Part shown: positions 2,966-33,099 of the stretch, in pieces
How the letters are laid out: every line of letters starts with the position of its first letter
How positions within the stretch are numbered: position 1 is the first letter of the stretch
Assembly: GCF_006547045.1 (NCBI RefSeq)
Contig: NZ_CP041242.1
Coordinates: 940,001 to 1,004,000 of the forward strand
DNA from: Lysobacter alkalisoli
Lineage (GTDB): Bacteria; Pseudomonadota; Gammaproteobacteria; Xanthomonadales; Xanthomonadaceae
Reading direction: 5' to 3'
Length of the DNA: 64,000 nt
The notes under the pieces: generated by a model
Told to the model about the DNA's origin: nothing
The model's database searches: none
Seen by the model: the letters and a program-made list of their open reading frames with translations, nothing else
Translations under genes and position numbers: made by a program

Positions 2966-4474
2966 TCAGCAGCAGCCGTGATCCCCATGCCGGTCGCCAC
3001 TGTCAGGCACCACCGCGGCACCGCTGGTCTCGCCGCGCTGGCTGGCGTGGTGGTGCTCGGCGATCACGCGGGCGACGCAGGCGGTGACGCGCTTGCCCAT
3101 CGGGATGTGCAGGAACTCGTTGGGTCCATGTGCATTCGAGTGCGGGCCGAGCACGCCGGTGATCATGAACTGGGCGCCGGGGAACTTCTCGCCGAGCATG
3201 CCCATGAACGGGATCGAGCCGCCTTCGCCCATGTACATCGCTGGCCGGCCGTAGAACTCGCGGCTGGCGGTGTCGATCGCCTTCTCCAGCCATGGCGACA
3301 TTGCCGGCGCGTTCCAGCCGGCCGAGGCCTTCTCCAGTTCCAGCGAGACCTGCGCGCCGTTGGGCGGGTCGCGCAGCAGTACCTCGCCGAGCAGTTCGCC
3401 GGCCTGCTTGCCGTTCAGGGTCGGCGGCAGCCGCAACGAGAGTTTGACCGCGGTATGCGGGCGCAGCACGTTGCCGGCCGAGTCGAGCGAGGGGATGCCG
3501 CCGATGCCGGTGACCGACAGCGCCGGGCGCCAGGTGCGGTTGAGCACCAGTTCGGCCAGGTCGTCATGCATCGGCTTGAGGCCGCCGACCAGCGGGAATT
3601 TGTCGTAGACGGCGGTGCCGAGCACTTCGGCGGCACGTTTCGCCTGCTCGATCCGCTCGGCCGGGATCTCGACGTGCAGGCCGTCCAAGGCGATGCGGCC
3701 GGTGTTCTCGTCCTCGATACGCGACAGCAGCTGGCGCAACAGGCGGAAGCTCGACGGCACGATGCCGGAGGCATCGCCCGAGTGCACGCCCTCGTCGAGC
3801 ACCTTCACGCTCAGATTGCCGCCGGCCAGGCCACGCAGCGAGGTGGTGCACCACAGCTGGTCGTAGTTGCCGCAGCCCGAGTCCAGGCAGACCACCAGCG
3901 ACGGCTTGCCGATGCGGTCGGCGAGGTGGTCGACGTAGGCCGGCAGGTCATAGCTGCCCGATTCCTCGCAGGCTTCGATGATGACCACGCAGCGCGAATG
4001 CGGCAGCTTCTGCTCCTGCAGGGCCTTGACCGCGGTCAGCGAGCCGTAGATCGCGTAGCCATCGTCGGCGCCGCCGCGGCCGTACAGTCTGTCGCCGCGC
4101 AGCACCGGCTTCCACGGGCCGAGGTCATCGTCCCAGCCGGTCATTTCCGGCTGCTTGTCGAGGTGGCCGTACATCAGCACGCAGTCATCGTCACTGCCGC
4201 CGTTGGCGGCCGGGATGTCGATGTAGATCAGCGGGGTACGGCCTTCCAGCCGGACCACCTCCAGCTGCATGCCGGGGATGCCCTGGGCGTTGGCCCACGT
4301 GGTCATCAGCTTGACCGCATCCTCCATGTAGCCGTGGGCGACCCAGTCGGCGTCGAACATCGGCGACTTGTTGGGGATGCGGATGTACTCGACGAGCTGG
4401 GGAACGATCTCGTCGTCCCACTTGCCGGCGACGAAGCGTTCGATGAGGGCGGGCTCGATCTGGCTGGCGTCCAT
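2966..4474 (-). CDS. M20 family metallodipeptidase
   Basis: A cytosolic zinc dipeptidase of the carnosinase-like M20 family, predicted to hydrolyse short peptides. The metal-binding order is visible: MYGHLDKQPE (first His/Asp), the bridging Asp in GRGGADDGYA, the catalytic Glu pair in IIEACEESGS, and a late His in TGVLGPHSNAHGPNEF. At ~502 residues it has the usual length, with the lid domain in the middle. I chose the ATG at 4472-4474 (MDASQIEPALIERF) because homologues begin near here; an ATG 10 codons upstream (4504) is also open. The C-terminus is odd, ending GDRHGDHGCC, a His/Cys tail that could bind metal. No signal peptide. It stands alone on the reverse strand; its upstream region is shared with the comEA-like gene. 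Confidence 0.88.
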   Translation of the reverse strand: MDASQIEPALIERFVAGKWDDEIVPQLVEYIRIPNKSPMFDADWVAHGYMEDAVKLMTTWANAQGIPGMQLEVVRLEGRTPLIYIDIPAANGGSDDDCVLMYGHLDKQPEMTGWDDDLGPWKPVLRGDRLYGRGGADDGYAIYGSLTAVKALQEQKLPHSRCVVIIEACEESGSYDLPAYVDHLADRIGKPSLVVCLDSGCGNYDQLWCTTSLRGLAGGNLSVKVLDEGVHSGDASGIVPSSFRLLRQLLSRIEDENTGRIALDGLHVEIPAERIEQAKRAAEVLGTAVYDKFPLVGGLKPMHDDLAELVLNRTWRPALSVTGIGGIPSLDSAGNVLRPHTAVKLSLRLPPTLNGKQAGELLGEVLLRDPPNGAQVSLELEKASAGWNAPAMSPWLEKAIDTASREFYGRPAMYMGEGGSIPFMGMLGEKFPGAQFMITGVLGPHSNAHGPNEFLHIPMGKRVTACVARVIAEHHHASQRGETSGAAVVPDSGDRHGDHGCC

Positions 4475-30443: not shown

Positions 30444-31141
30444 TTGCTGGGGGAGGCGACCGGCGACTGCCGCCACGCCCTGCTGCTGCACGGCGCCGGC
30501 GGTGGCGGCTGGGAATGGGCGATCTGGCAGCCAGTGTTGGAGGCCGAGGGCATCGCTGTCCACGCTCTCGACCTGATGCCCGTCGCGGCCGGTTTGCAGG
30601 CCACCCGGCTCGATGACTACGTCGTCCAGGCACGGGCTGCGCTGGCGGCTCTGCCGCGGCCACGAGCGGCGATCGGCGCGAGCCTTGGCGGACTGCTGGC
30701 CGTGATCGTTGCCGATGCCGCCGATGCGCTGGTGCTGGTCAACCCGCTGCCGCCGTCTCCATGGGCCGGGCAGTTGCCCAGCCGTGAATGGCCTGACGTG
30801 GTGCCATGGGGCCGCGACGCACGACTGGCCTCGACCCGCCGTGCGTTGCCCGATGCCGATCCGGCCACCACGCTGTTCGCGTTCCGCCGCTGGCGCGACG
30901 AGTCGGGCGCGGTGCTGCGCGAGGCGCATGCTGGCGTGGCGATGGCCGCGCCGGTCTGCCGGACCTTGTGCATCGCTTCGGAGCACGACGAGGACGTGCC
31001 GGCCGGGGTCACGGCCGGGTTGGCCCGGGCCTGGTCGGGCGATTGCATGCATCTGGCCGATGCCAGCCATGTAGGCCCTTGCTCGGCCGTGCCGCGCCGG
31101 CCGTGGCCGGGCGGGTCGCGGGGTGGTTGCGACAGGTCTGA
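30444..31141 (+). CDS. Alpha/beta hydrolase, frameshifted at the C-terminus
   Basis: An alpha/beta-hydrolase-fold enzyme beginning LGEATGDCRHALLLHGAGGG at a TTG codon. The oxyanion-loop HGAGGGGWEW, the nucleophile elbow AIGASLGGLLAV, an acidic residue in EHDEDVPAG and the catalytic-type His in DASHVGP are all present. Right after ASHVGP, near 31074-31080 (GGCCCTT), the reading frame changes: the expected end LLGRAAPAVAGRVAGWLRQV stop (31139-31141) is in the +2 frame. The unshifted frame instead runs to 31259, through unrelated arginine-rich residues and into a structured repeat. I give the ancestral end. The substrate is unknown. It lies six bases after osmC, probably in one transcript. Confidence 0.7.
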
Positions 31142-31194
31142 GGTTCTCCCCCGATCAAGGGAGAAGCGCCGGGTCTGTTGGATGACTGGGCGCT

Positions 31195-31285
31195 GGGGAC
31201 GAAGGCCCTTGGGTGTGAATGTCCCCCGGCGCCGGCCAGGGCCGGCGCCTCCTCCTTGATTTCACACCCAAGGGCCTTCGCCCCC
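31195..31285. repeat. Structured repeat, family C copy 1 (inverted orientation)
   Basis: Outer arms GGGGACGAAGGCCCTTGGG (24 of 25 paired with the right arm ending at 31285) enclose an asymmetric internal loop. Read on the reverse strand it is ATCAAGGAGGAGG on one side and GGGGGACA on the other, around a ten-bp inner stem GGCGCCGGCC/GGCCGGCGCC. Copy 2 at 31353-31456 has the same loops but different stems. Copies 1 and 2 together occupy most of the 480-base gap between the hydrolase and the rhombotarget lipoprotein, where I see no gene. Confidence 0.85.
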
Positions 31286-31352
31286 GGCGTTCGGAGATGA
31301 TCGGTGGTTCCAGAAGCAGAGGACCGGCTTCGCGTTCCAGCGTGGCCGCGCG

Positions 31353-31456
31353 ACCCGACGTGACCTGCCGGCCTTGACGGCGAAATCAAGGAGGAGGCCG
31401 CCGCCACGGGCGGCGGCCGGGGGACATTCGCCGTCAAGGCCGGCAGGTCGCGTCGG
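31353..31456. repeat. Structured repeat, family C copy 2
   Basis: Outer arms of 31 bp (30 paired), starting CCCGACGTGACCTGCCGG, enclose ATCAAGGAGGAGG, an inner stem GGCCGCCGCC/GGCGGCGGCC, and CCGGGGGACA. It is opposite in orientation to copy 1 and 67 bases away. Loop sequences match copy 1 while both stems have changed with pairing kept. The loop contains AAGGAGG, a perfect Shine-Dalgarno core. Confidence 0.85.
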
Positions 31457-31621
31457 GACAGTCAGGTAGCGGCGAGAATCGGTGATCGAACGCAAGCGGC
31501 AGCCGCCACGCCTTCGCTGAAGGCGGGAGCGTGGATGGAACGGCCACACGAGGCCCATCGTGGCATCGGCTATAGTCCCGCCATTCCGGCCTGGCCGGTC
31601 CAGGAAACTCAGGGGGCGAAA

Positions 31622-32536
31622 ATGGAAGATTCGAAAGGCGGAGAGCTGCGCCGTCACAAGGGCTCCCGGTGTCACTGGGGCAAGCGGGTCGTGGCGATGT
31701 TGCTGGGGCTTGCCGCGGTATCGCTGGTCGCCGGGTGTGCCTCGTTCTTTTCCGGAGCGGCACAACGTACCGGCGTATCCAGCAGCGTGGTCGACTACCT
31801 GTACCCGGCTGGCGAGAAGTTCGAGCCGATGCATGAGGAAACCCCGGAGGTCCGGTTGCCTGCCCGGGTGGGGTTGATGTTCGTGCCGTCGTCGCGACAG
31901 CCTGTCGGGCTTACCGGGGCCGACAAGCAATCCTTGCTGGACCAGGTGCGTGACGCATTCAAGAGCCAGCCCTTCATCGAGCGGATCGAGATCGTGCCGG
32001 ACAGTTATCTGCGACCTGGAGGCGGATTCGAAAATCTCGAACAGGTCGCGCGCCTGCACGGAGTCGATATCGTCGCACTGGTGTCCTATGACCAGGTCCT
32101 GCGCACCGAGGAGTCGGCGGCATCGTTCCTGTACTGGACCATCGTCGGCGCCTACACGGTCCCGGCCAACCGCAACCAGGTCAGCACCTTCGTCGATACC
32201 TCGGTGTTCGACGTGGCCACGCGAACCCTGCTGTTGCGCGCGCCGGGACAGGACCAGCAGAAGGCTGCGTCCACCGCGATCCGGGTTGGCGACGTGCAGG
32301 ACCGGCTGGCGCGCGAAAGCTTTCAGTCCGCAGTCACCGACATGGTCGCCAATCTGGATGCATCGATTGCCGATTTCGACCGGCGGGTGCGCGAGGAAGG
32401 TCAGGTGCGGCTGGTGGATCGCCGATCCGGAAGCAGTTGGCATCAACGATCGGGTGGAAAGGGGAGCGTACGGGCGTGGGAGCTGGGCGTTCTGTTGCTG
32501 GGCGCCGCGCTGCTGCTGTTGCGGCGACGCGGGTAA
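31622..32536 (+). CDS. Rhombotarget lipoprotein with GlyGly-CTERM sorting signal
   Basis: A 304-residue lipoprotein paired with the rhombosortase encoded next. After a basic N-terminus comes a hydrophobic stretch and lipobox LVAGC (Cys near residue 38). The body (PARVGLMFVPSSRQPVGL, ARLHGVDIVALVSYDQVL, VSTFVDTSVFDVATRTLLLRAPG) is the rhombotarget family fold of unknown function. The C-terminus is a sorting signal: GGKGSVRAW, a transmembrane segment ELGVLLLGAALLLL, and RRRG. Such a tail is thought to be cut by the cognate intramembrane protease. I start at ATG 31622 with AGGGGGCG upstream; the open frame before it lacks support. Its 3' end overlaps rrtA by 61 bases. Confidence 0.87.
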   Translation: MEDSKGGELRRHKGSRCHWGKRVVAMLLGLAAVSLVAGCASFFSGAAQRTGVSSSVVDYLYPAGEKFEPMHEETPEVRLPARVGLMFVPSSRQPVGLTGADKQSLLDQVRDAFKSQPFIERIEIVPDSYLRPGGGFENLEQVARLHGVDIVALVSYDQVLRTEESAASFLYWTIVGAYTVPANRNQVSTFVDTSVFDVATRTLLLRAPGQDQQKAASTAIRVGDVQDRLARESFQSAVTDMVANLDASIADFDRRVREEGQVRLVDRRSGSSWHQRSGGKGSVRAWELGVLLLGAALLLLRRRG

Positions 32537-33099
32537 CCCTGGCGACCGGTGCGCTGGCACTGGCCGGCCTGCATTGGCCCGCCGTGTTCGACGCGCTGGC
32601 GCTGGACCGGCCAATGCTGGAGGCCGGCCAGCTATGGCGCCTGTGGACTGGTCATCTCGTGCATGTGGATCCGGCCCACGCAGGGCTGAACCTCACAGCG
32701 CTGGTAATGCTGGCGGTCGTGGCTGTCCGTTCCCAGGCCATGGGCCGATTGTTGCTGGCCTCGCTGGTCCTGATGCCGGTGATCAGTATCGGGGTCTTGC
32801 TGCTTCTGCCTGACCTGCAGTGGTATGCCGGCCTGTCCGGCCTGCTGCACGGCTGGCTGGCATGGCTCCTGGTGCAACGCAGGGGGATCGTGGCCGTAGT
32901 CGGGCTGGCCCTGCTCGGCCTGAAGTTGTGGTGGGAGATGTCGTCCGGAGCGGTGGGCGGTACCGGAGTATCGGTGACGACCGAAGCGCACCGTTTGGGT
33001 GCGGCGGGCGGCCTGGTGCTGGCATGGGCCGCGCATGGGTGGCGCGCGGCACGCGGACGAGGGCGCCTTACCAGTCGATCTGTCCGCGCACCACGGTGA
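32476..33099 (+). CDS. rrtA: Rhombosortase (rhomboid family intramembrane protease)
   Basis: A 207-residue rhomboid-type serine protease of the rhombosortase family, which processes GlyGly-CTERM proteins in the inner membrane. Visible features are QLWRLWTGHLVHVDPAHAGLNL (N-terminal HxxxN-like region), the nucleophile loop WYAGLSGLLHGWLAW with G-x-S-G, and the late His in TTEAHRLGAAGGLVLAW. The hydrophobic profile fits six helices. I start at GTG 32476, nine bases after GGGGAG; the frame is open to 32437. Its partner is the overlapping lipoprotein gene. The 3' end overlaps the convergent phzF gene by 32 bases. Confidence 0.88.
   Translation: MGAGRSVAGRRAAAVAATRVTLATGALALAGLHWPAVFDALALDRPMLEAGQLWRLWTGHLVHVDPAHAGLNLTALVMLAVVAVRSQAMGRLLLASLVLMPVISIGVLLLLPDLQWYAGLSGLLHGWLAWLLVQRRGIVAVVGLALLGLKLWWEMSSGAVGGTGVSVTTEAHRLGAAGGLVLAWAAHGWRAARGRGRLTSRSVRAPR

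Follow-up and report, generated by a model that had tools for sequence, protein, structure and literature searches.

Two head-to-head hairpins in Lysobacter alkalisoli

The window analysed here is a stretch of 64,000 nt from the genome of Lysobacter alkalisoli, and it contains a repeat element with two long hairpins. A plus-strand frame for an alpha/beta hydrolase (PF12697; 30444-31259) extends into the element, and a second plus-strand frame (30806-31141) stops just before its left end, which together suggests a frameshift near the 3' end of the gene. On the other side, the plus-strand region 31535-33099 encodes a protein with a hydrophobic, arginine-rich C-terminal tail and no Pfam match, followed by a rhomboid protein (PF01694); the two look like a rhombosortase-type pair.

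The hairpins occupy 31191-31289 (hairpin A) and 31354-31457 (hairpin B), in opposite orientation and head to head, just as the first-pass annotation had placed them (Table 1). Hairpin A is formed on the minus strand by 24 contiguous outer pairs (31196-31219 with 31261-31284), and its arms are extended by a repeat finder to 29 nt (31191-31219 and 31261-31289, 93%). The outer arms of hairpin B, on the plus strand, have a length of 31 nt (31354-31384 and 31427-31457, 97% complementary). An inner stem of ten base pairs had been ascribed to both copies; this is true of hairpin B, whereas the inner stem of hairpin A has 9 bp. The internal loop had been described as constant and it is indeed identical in the two hairpins, with ATCAAGGAGGAGG on its 5' side and GGGGGACA on its 3' side. 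For both hairpins and both strands, folded as RNA or as DNA, the z-scores range from -8.6 to -11.6, and none of 200 shuffles folded as well. Ribosome binding via the Shine-Dalgarno core that had been read in the loop is not supported, because a start codon at the usual distance downstream is missing in both window hairpins and because the loop is conserved as a whole, the GGGGGACATTC side equally so.

Table 1. Features of the repeat element in the window (positions within the 64,000-nt stretch)
Feature	Positions	Strand	Basis
MITE-like carrier element (this genome)	31142..31527		alignment of 25 pairs, ends read; right boundary approximate, from consensus
Hairpin A, type A arms, purine-loop strand minus	31196..31284	-	fold; covariance match 104.6 bits
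Conserved loop 5' side, ATCAAGGAGGAGG, hairpin A	31248..31260	-	
Conserved loop 3' side, GGGGGACA, hairpin A	31220..31227	-	
Spacer between hairpins A and B	31290..31353		
Hairpin B, type B arms, full outer-arm extent	31354..31457	+	fold; covariance match 102.2 bits for 31361-31450
Conserved loop 5' side, ATCAAGGAGGAGG, hairpin B	31385..31397	+	
Conserved loop 3' side, GGGGGACA, hairpin B	31419..31426	+	

The repeat family and its carrier in this genome

The window hairpins belong to a large family. The exact 13-mer of the loop occurs 75 times in the 3.86 Mb of the genome (37 forward, 38 reverse), whereas the reversed pattern, used as a control, does not occur at all. A covariance model trained on 30 hairpins yielded 93 matches, which represent at least 91 distinct hairpins (two are the opposite strand of another); the number is a lower bound, as scoring covered 150 of the 7900 first-look candidates. 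Considering the exact copies, the empty control and the covariance matches, the hairpins in the window are not due to chance.

The arms of the 75 exact copies fall into two types. Both arms are of type A in 33 cases and of type B in 38, the other four being hybrid or unclassified, and all 25 pairs with two exact cores consist of one A and one B hairpin, head to head. Arms of the same type are conserved across this genome, whereas between genera they covary. Thus, the statement that the outer arms of the window pair share no sequence is right as far as the arms go, and can be refined: they differ because one is of type A and the other of type B, and the two make up a single repeat. More specifically, the 86 hairpins in the fetched loci of this genome form 36 pairs (35 of them minus-plus) and 14 singles, and the gap between the paired model matches measures 69-96 nt.

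The elements are mostly intergenic. According to gene calls that are crude (one gene flanking the window element was called on the wrong strand), none of 48 elements lies inside a predicted gene in this genome, or 1 of 50 overlaps one when other limits are taken, and 8 of 121 lie inside a gene in other genomes. With the same crude calls, the elements show no preference for a gene orientation beyond the background (convergent, Fisher p 0.18 and 0.88). No copy of the window element was found on plasmids; plasmid-borne copies of the family were seen in Variovorax only, at 15 places in 3 large plasmids.

An alignment of the 25 pairs revealed that the conservation in this genome extends over ~430 bp and ends in imperfect inverted repeats of ~26 bp (GGTTCTTCGCCC... 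and ...GGGAGAAGAACC). Part of the copies are flanked by A/T-rich target duplications of ~8 bp, for instance AAGAAAAA and TTTCTTTT. The mean duplication score was 3.26, versus 1.79 (sd 0.37) when the flanks were exchanged among the copies, and none of 2000 such shuffles scored as high. The test covers 17 of the 25 pairs, since the ends of 8 were not recognised by the hand-made patterns; 8 of the 17 scored 4.5 or more and 9 scored 2.5 or less, i.e. have no good duplication. The left end, searched with at most 3 mismatches, has 36 matches in the genome. Thirty of these lie beside a hairpin, and at the other six, four of which keep both ends, the hairpins have been largely deleted. No transposase or autonomous relative was noticed at these places. 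In its imperfect inverted ends, in the duplications of part of its copies and in the lack of a transposase of its own, the carrier is like a MITE, and this combination of terminal inverted repeats and target duplications was found in this genome only. The window copy has the left inverted end (GGTTCTC... at 31142, directly after the TGA codon at 31139-31141), whereas its right inverted end is not recognisable. The ends resemble, in our estimation, those of ISL3-type elements; an ISL3-type transposase was looked for and rejected, as the genome has no match to PF01610.

Distribution in other bacteria

The first-pass annotation had made its reading depend on further copies with a conserved loop and changing stems, and many such copies exist, in two bacterial families. 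Apart from the L. alkalisoli genome, 3 of 59 related ones combine the loop with other stems. A sample of the family has it in 49 of its 297 genomes, spread over 7 of 54 genera, and a sample of the phylum in 7 of 398 genomes, of which four (this genome among them) belong to the same family and three to one other. Among the matches listed, the Xanthomonadaceae are represented by Luteimonas, Lysobacter, Stenotrophomonas and Thermomonas, and the Comamonadaceae by Variovorax, Hydrogenophaga, Rhodoferax, Acidovorax and Ramlibacter. The layout is retained as well: minus-plus head-to-head pairs are present in 33 of the 39 loci with matches (40 were fetched, from the genomes G205, G171 and G060). The Variovorax elements, however, have another short terminal stem at their ends (TTCAGGGCG / CGCCCTGAA), and 14 of them gave no signal of target duplications (2 loci without a recognised end were skipped, and in others the pattern picked out no pair). 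Considering these different ends without duplication, it is the hairpin pair and not the MITE ends that constitutes the shared unit.

Outside this genome the elements persist at orthologous sites and therefore need not be mobile there. At one pair of such sites (L252:300-640 and L158:7160-7345, the latter in Lysobacter antarcticus) one genome has both arms and the other only one, implying that an arm was lost or gained in place. Some single records may be added. A viral contig of 39 kb from IMG/VR has a single exact core (L217:723-752). The hairpins also occur in a record titled Bacillus subtilis SK7B5 (L116, L157), which looks mislabelled or contaminated, given the distribution elsewhere. At L102:702-2151 a hairpin has a replaced 5' arm, and a protein nearby resembles what we take to be an IS66-type accessory protein. 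A full-text search for six core strings retrieved no paper containing them, and in literature searches no description of this hairpin family was noticed.

A near-invariant loop on covarying stems

The stems change while continuing to pair. Two-sided changes are seen at 25 of the 31 pairs of the consensus. A comparison of eight locus pairs judged orthologous (six by BLAST, L105/L150 and L153/L175 by eye), comprising 13 hairpin comparisons, revealed 17 double compensatory changes and 18 one-sided ones that switch between Watson-Crick and G-U pairs; a further 4 switch between Watson-Crick and A-C, and 22 lead to other mismatches on one side, many of these in a single arm whose register is shifted (L246/L126, minus).

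The loop changed at 1.5% per site as compared to 4-5%, a figure that is biased because the loci were mostly fetched via exact loop matches. A less biased view is offered by 18 left partner arms (from G205 and G171) whose loci had been located without their help: 17 of these retain GGGGGACAT unchanged and 15 retain AAGGAGGAGG, and one is changed on both sides of the loop. In addition, 11 Variovorax partner arms were missed by the pattern, and in most of these the inner stem closes one base earlier (AAGGAGGAG...CGGGGGACA). Three hairpins (in L132, L177 and L194, cores at 4423, 6215 and 5362, all minus) were inspected for an insertion sequence; what was found instead is an addition of 18 nt, TGGACTTGGGGTTTTGCC, beside the AAAT on the 5' side of the loop, which could form a small extra hairpin.

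The strand that folds and the nature of the folded molecule

In duplex DNA or a cruciform, G-T/U and A-C mispairs should be equally numerous, because they are mirror images on opposite strands. The outer stems are far from this expectation. On the strand with the purine loop we counted 238 G-T/U wobbles versus 19 A-C mispairs in 156 distinct hairpins (after removal of 13 weakly paired rows from 233 and of duplicates from the remainder), and the asymmetry recurs in every subset (49:3, 28:4 and 163:12). When only distinct events inside clusters are taken, the count becomes 26:10, next to 24 full compensations, with 85 of the 181 distinct hairpins belonging to clusters too small to count. Each hairpin thus appears to be selected for folding from its purine-loop strand. 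The asymmetry is similar in all gene contexts, as far as the crude gene calls can tell (63:5 in sense, 56:6 in antisense, 36:3 in convergent and 44:3 in divergent position), which argues against the mRNA of a neighbouring gene as the folded molecule. By itself, this asymmetry cannot tell RNA and single-stranded DNA apart.

The tips of the hairpins bear on this question. Of the 126 distinct inner stems counted in other genomes, 57 have a C(GNA)G triloop at their tip, which makes up 57 of the 79 triloops closed by C-G, whereas the mirror-image C(TNC)G tip was found twice, a GNRA tip once and UNCG never. In ordinary hairpins, taken from 1.16 Mb of the window and the loci together, GNA accounts for 33 of 662 C-G-closed triloops (p 3e-43 versus the elements), and in terminator-like hairpins for none of 9 (p 4e-5). 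GNRA/UNCG tetraloops, found in 1 of 19 cases in the elements and in 15 of 50 in terminator-like hairpins, did not differ significantly (p 0.052). Among 278 cores from other genomes, counted with duplicates, 43 contain the heptamer GCGAAGC. GNA loops form extraordinarily stable DNA mini-hairpins, and GCGAAGC melts near 78 C, according to PMC4686876. The DNA-specific stability is taken from the literature since the folding energy tables, those for RNA and for DNA alike, contain no bonus for GNA. The tips outside this genome therefore favour folding as single-stranded DNA. In the L. alkalisoli genome itself they are rare (2 of 33), and for that reason the hairpins may merely be carried along by the MITE there.

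A proposed single-stranded DNA element and its main rival

Taking the strand-specific asymmetry, which holds whatever the direction of the genes, together with the C(GNA)G tips outside this genome, we favour a REPIN-like paired palindromic element that would fold as single-stranded DNA and whose loop would be read by a putative trans-acting protein, a reading to which we give about an even chance. The dispersed, inverted and intergenic pairs are a feature shared with REPINs. Each of the two long head-to-head hairpins would fold only from the strand that has the AAGGAGGAGG / GGGGGACA loop, so that either strand, when single, would show one correct hairpin. The internal loop would serve as a recognition tag for the protein, which might bind or process the hairpin when its DNA is in single-stranded form, as on the lagging strand. 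The stems need only pair and could therefore drift by compensatory change, with the loop nearly frozen. In the L. alkalisoli genome, we propose, the pair would have been carried and multiplied inside the MITE of ~430 bp, with the A/T-rich duplications of ~8 bp arising at its targets. Where the first-pass annotation had left the choice between a structured RNA and a folded-DNA transposition substrate, the evidence thus leans to folded DNA; no enzyme has been found to go with the second half of that phrase. The genes beside the elements include none that clearly recurs (the largest cluster among 505 neighbour proteins covers 7 loci). An IS91-type Y2 transposase (PF04986) was considered and rejected, being absent here and present in 2 of 10 core-bearing versus 2 of 8 core-free genomes.

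More tentatively, the family might constitute a new class of strand-specific single-stranded DNA hairpin elements that are tagged by an internal loop instead of a head, with a putative hairpin-processing enzyme of their own, common to Xanthomonadaceae and Comamonadaceae, and with possible hitch-hiking on MITEs. The family is of interest in that these paired repeats, with no RAYT involved, have one long internal loop that is near-invariant over two families and a folding strand that can be told. A fixed ligand on freely variable stems provides a clean handle for finding a new protein that binds nucleic-acid hairpins, and the family is a natural test of DNA versus RNA folding.

The main rival is a structured RNA, although we regard it as rather unlikely. 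In that case the purine-loop hairpin would act in transcripts, at the ends of mRNAs or as small RNAs, and the loop would be read by a widespread RNA-binding factor; owing to the head-to-head layout, transcripts of either direction would contain one good hairpin. Covariation and wobble asymmetry are classical signatures of RNA, and the mostly intergenic location fits as well. However, the asymmetry is much alike in sense, antisense and divergent contexts, the orientation of the genes does not rise above the background, and the tips are of the type that stabilises DNA. Moreover, Rfam returned no match at threshold: its 11 matches, mostly to microRNA hairpin models, are all far below the gathering scores (best 32.4 bits versus 79, E 0.00036). 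The loop resembles what we take to be the CsrA/RsmE consensus. A CsrA/RsmA sponge was rejected, as PF02599 is present in 6 of 6 Xanthomonadaceae and has no match in 6 of 6 core-bearing Burkholderiales (the completeness of these assemblies is not given), and CsrA is thus unlikely to be the reader of the loop.

Relation to MITEs, REPs and attC sites

The elements could also be an ordinary MITE, in which transposition spread a chance pair of palindromes without a role and hairpin-templated repair kept it perfect. The inverted ends and duplications in this genome are in line with this, and so are the 6 of 36 left-end matches that have lost most of their hairpins. Nevertheless, we consider it improbable: repair predicts Watson-Crick pairs, yet G-T outnumbers A-C by 12:1, the loop is conserved over two families, and in other genera it sits on unrelated stems with other ends or no recognisable ones. 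Unlike in a MITE, the conserved part is internal, and in other genera the hairpin pair is found without these ends.

Paired palindromic repeats are often attributed to RAYT transposases. A REP/REPIN of this kind, moved by a Y1 transposase and having an unusual head, would share with our elements the inverted pairs, the high copy number, the intergenic location and the folding of one strand, but is a very improbable explanation, as loci of ~3.3 kb around 5 Y1 genes from 4 genomes contain no core and as no Y1 gene was found in G205, G236 and G063 despite 28, 26 and 20 cores (3 of 18 core-bearing genome handles; among the 18, G071 and G147 are probably one genome, given their identical places). 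RAYT genes are thus not needed for the hairpin family. The first-pass annotation had seen more than a plain REP in the pair, a view that we share. Like REPs, BIMEs and REPINs with their RAYT (TnpA-REP), the elements are intergenic, occur in many inverted copies and would be processed as a hairpin of one strand. In contrast, the hairpins are ~90 nt long, a purine internal loop is conserved instead of a head (by inspection, the hairpin alignments have no GTAG-type head at a fixed place), no tie to RAYT is seen, and one loop is kept over two families while the stems change.

The attC sites of integrons likewise combine a folded single strand, variable stems and conserved unpaired parts. The present elements would share these properties, but no attC consensus was noticed by eye, nor any cassette genes between the copies. 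In PMC8266576 TnpA-REP is likened to the integron integrases, and REPs of the E. coli type are stated to require an irregular zone in the stem. The Y1 genes of two relatives (L221, L222) are flanked by repeats of the GTAGGAGCGG type, which by eye are unrelated to the hairpin family.
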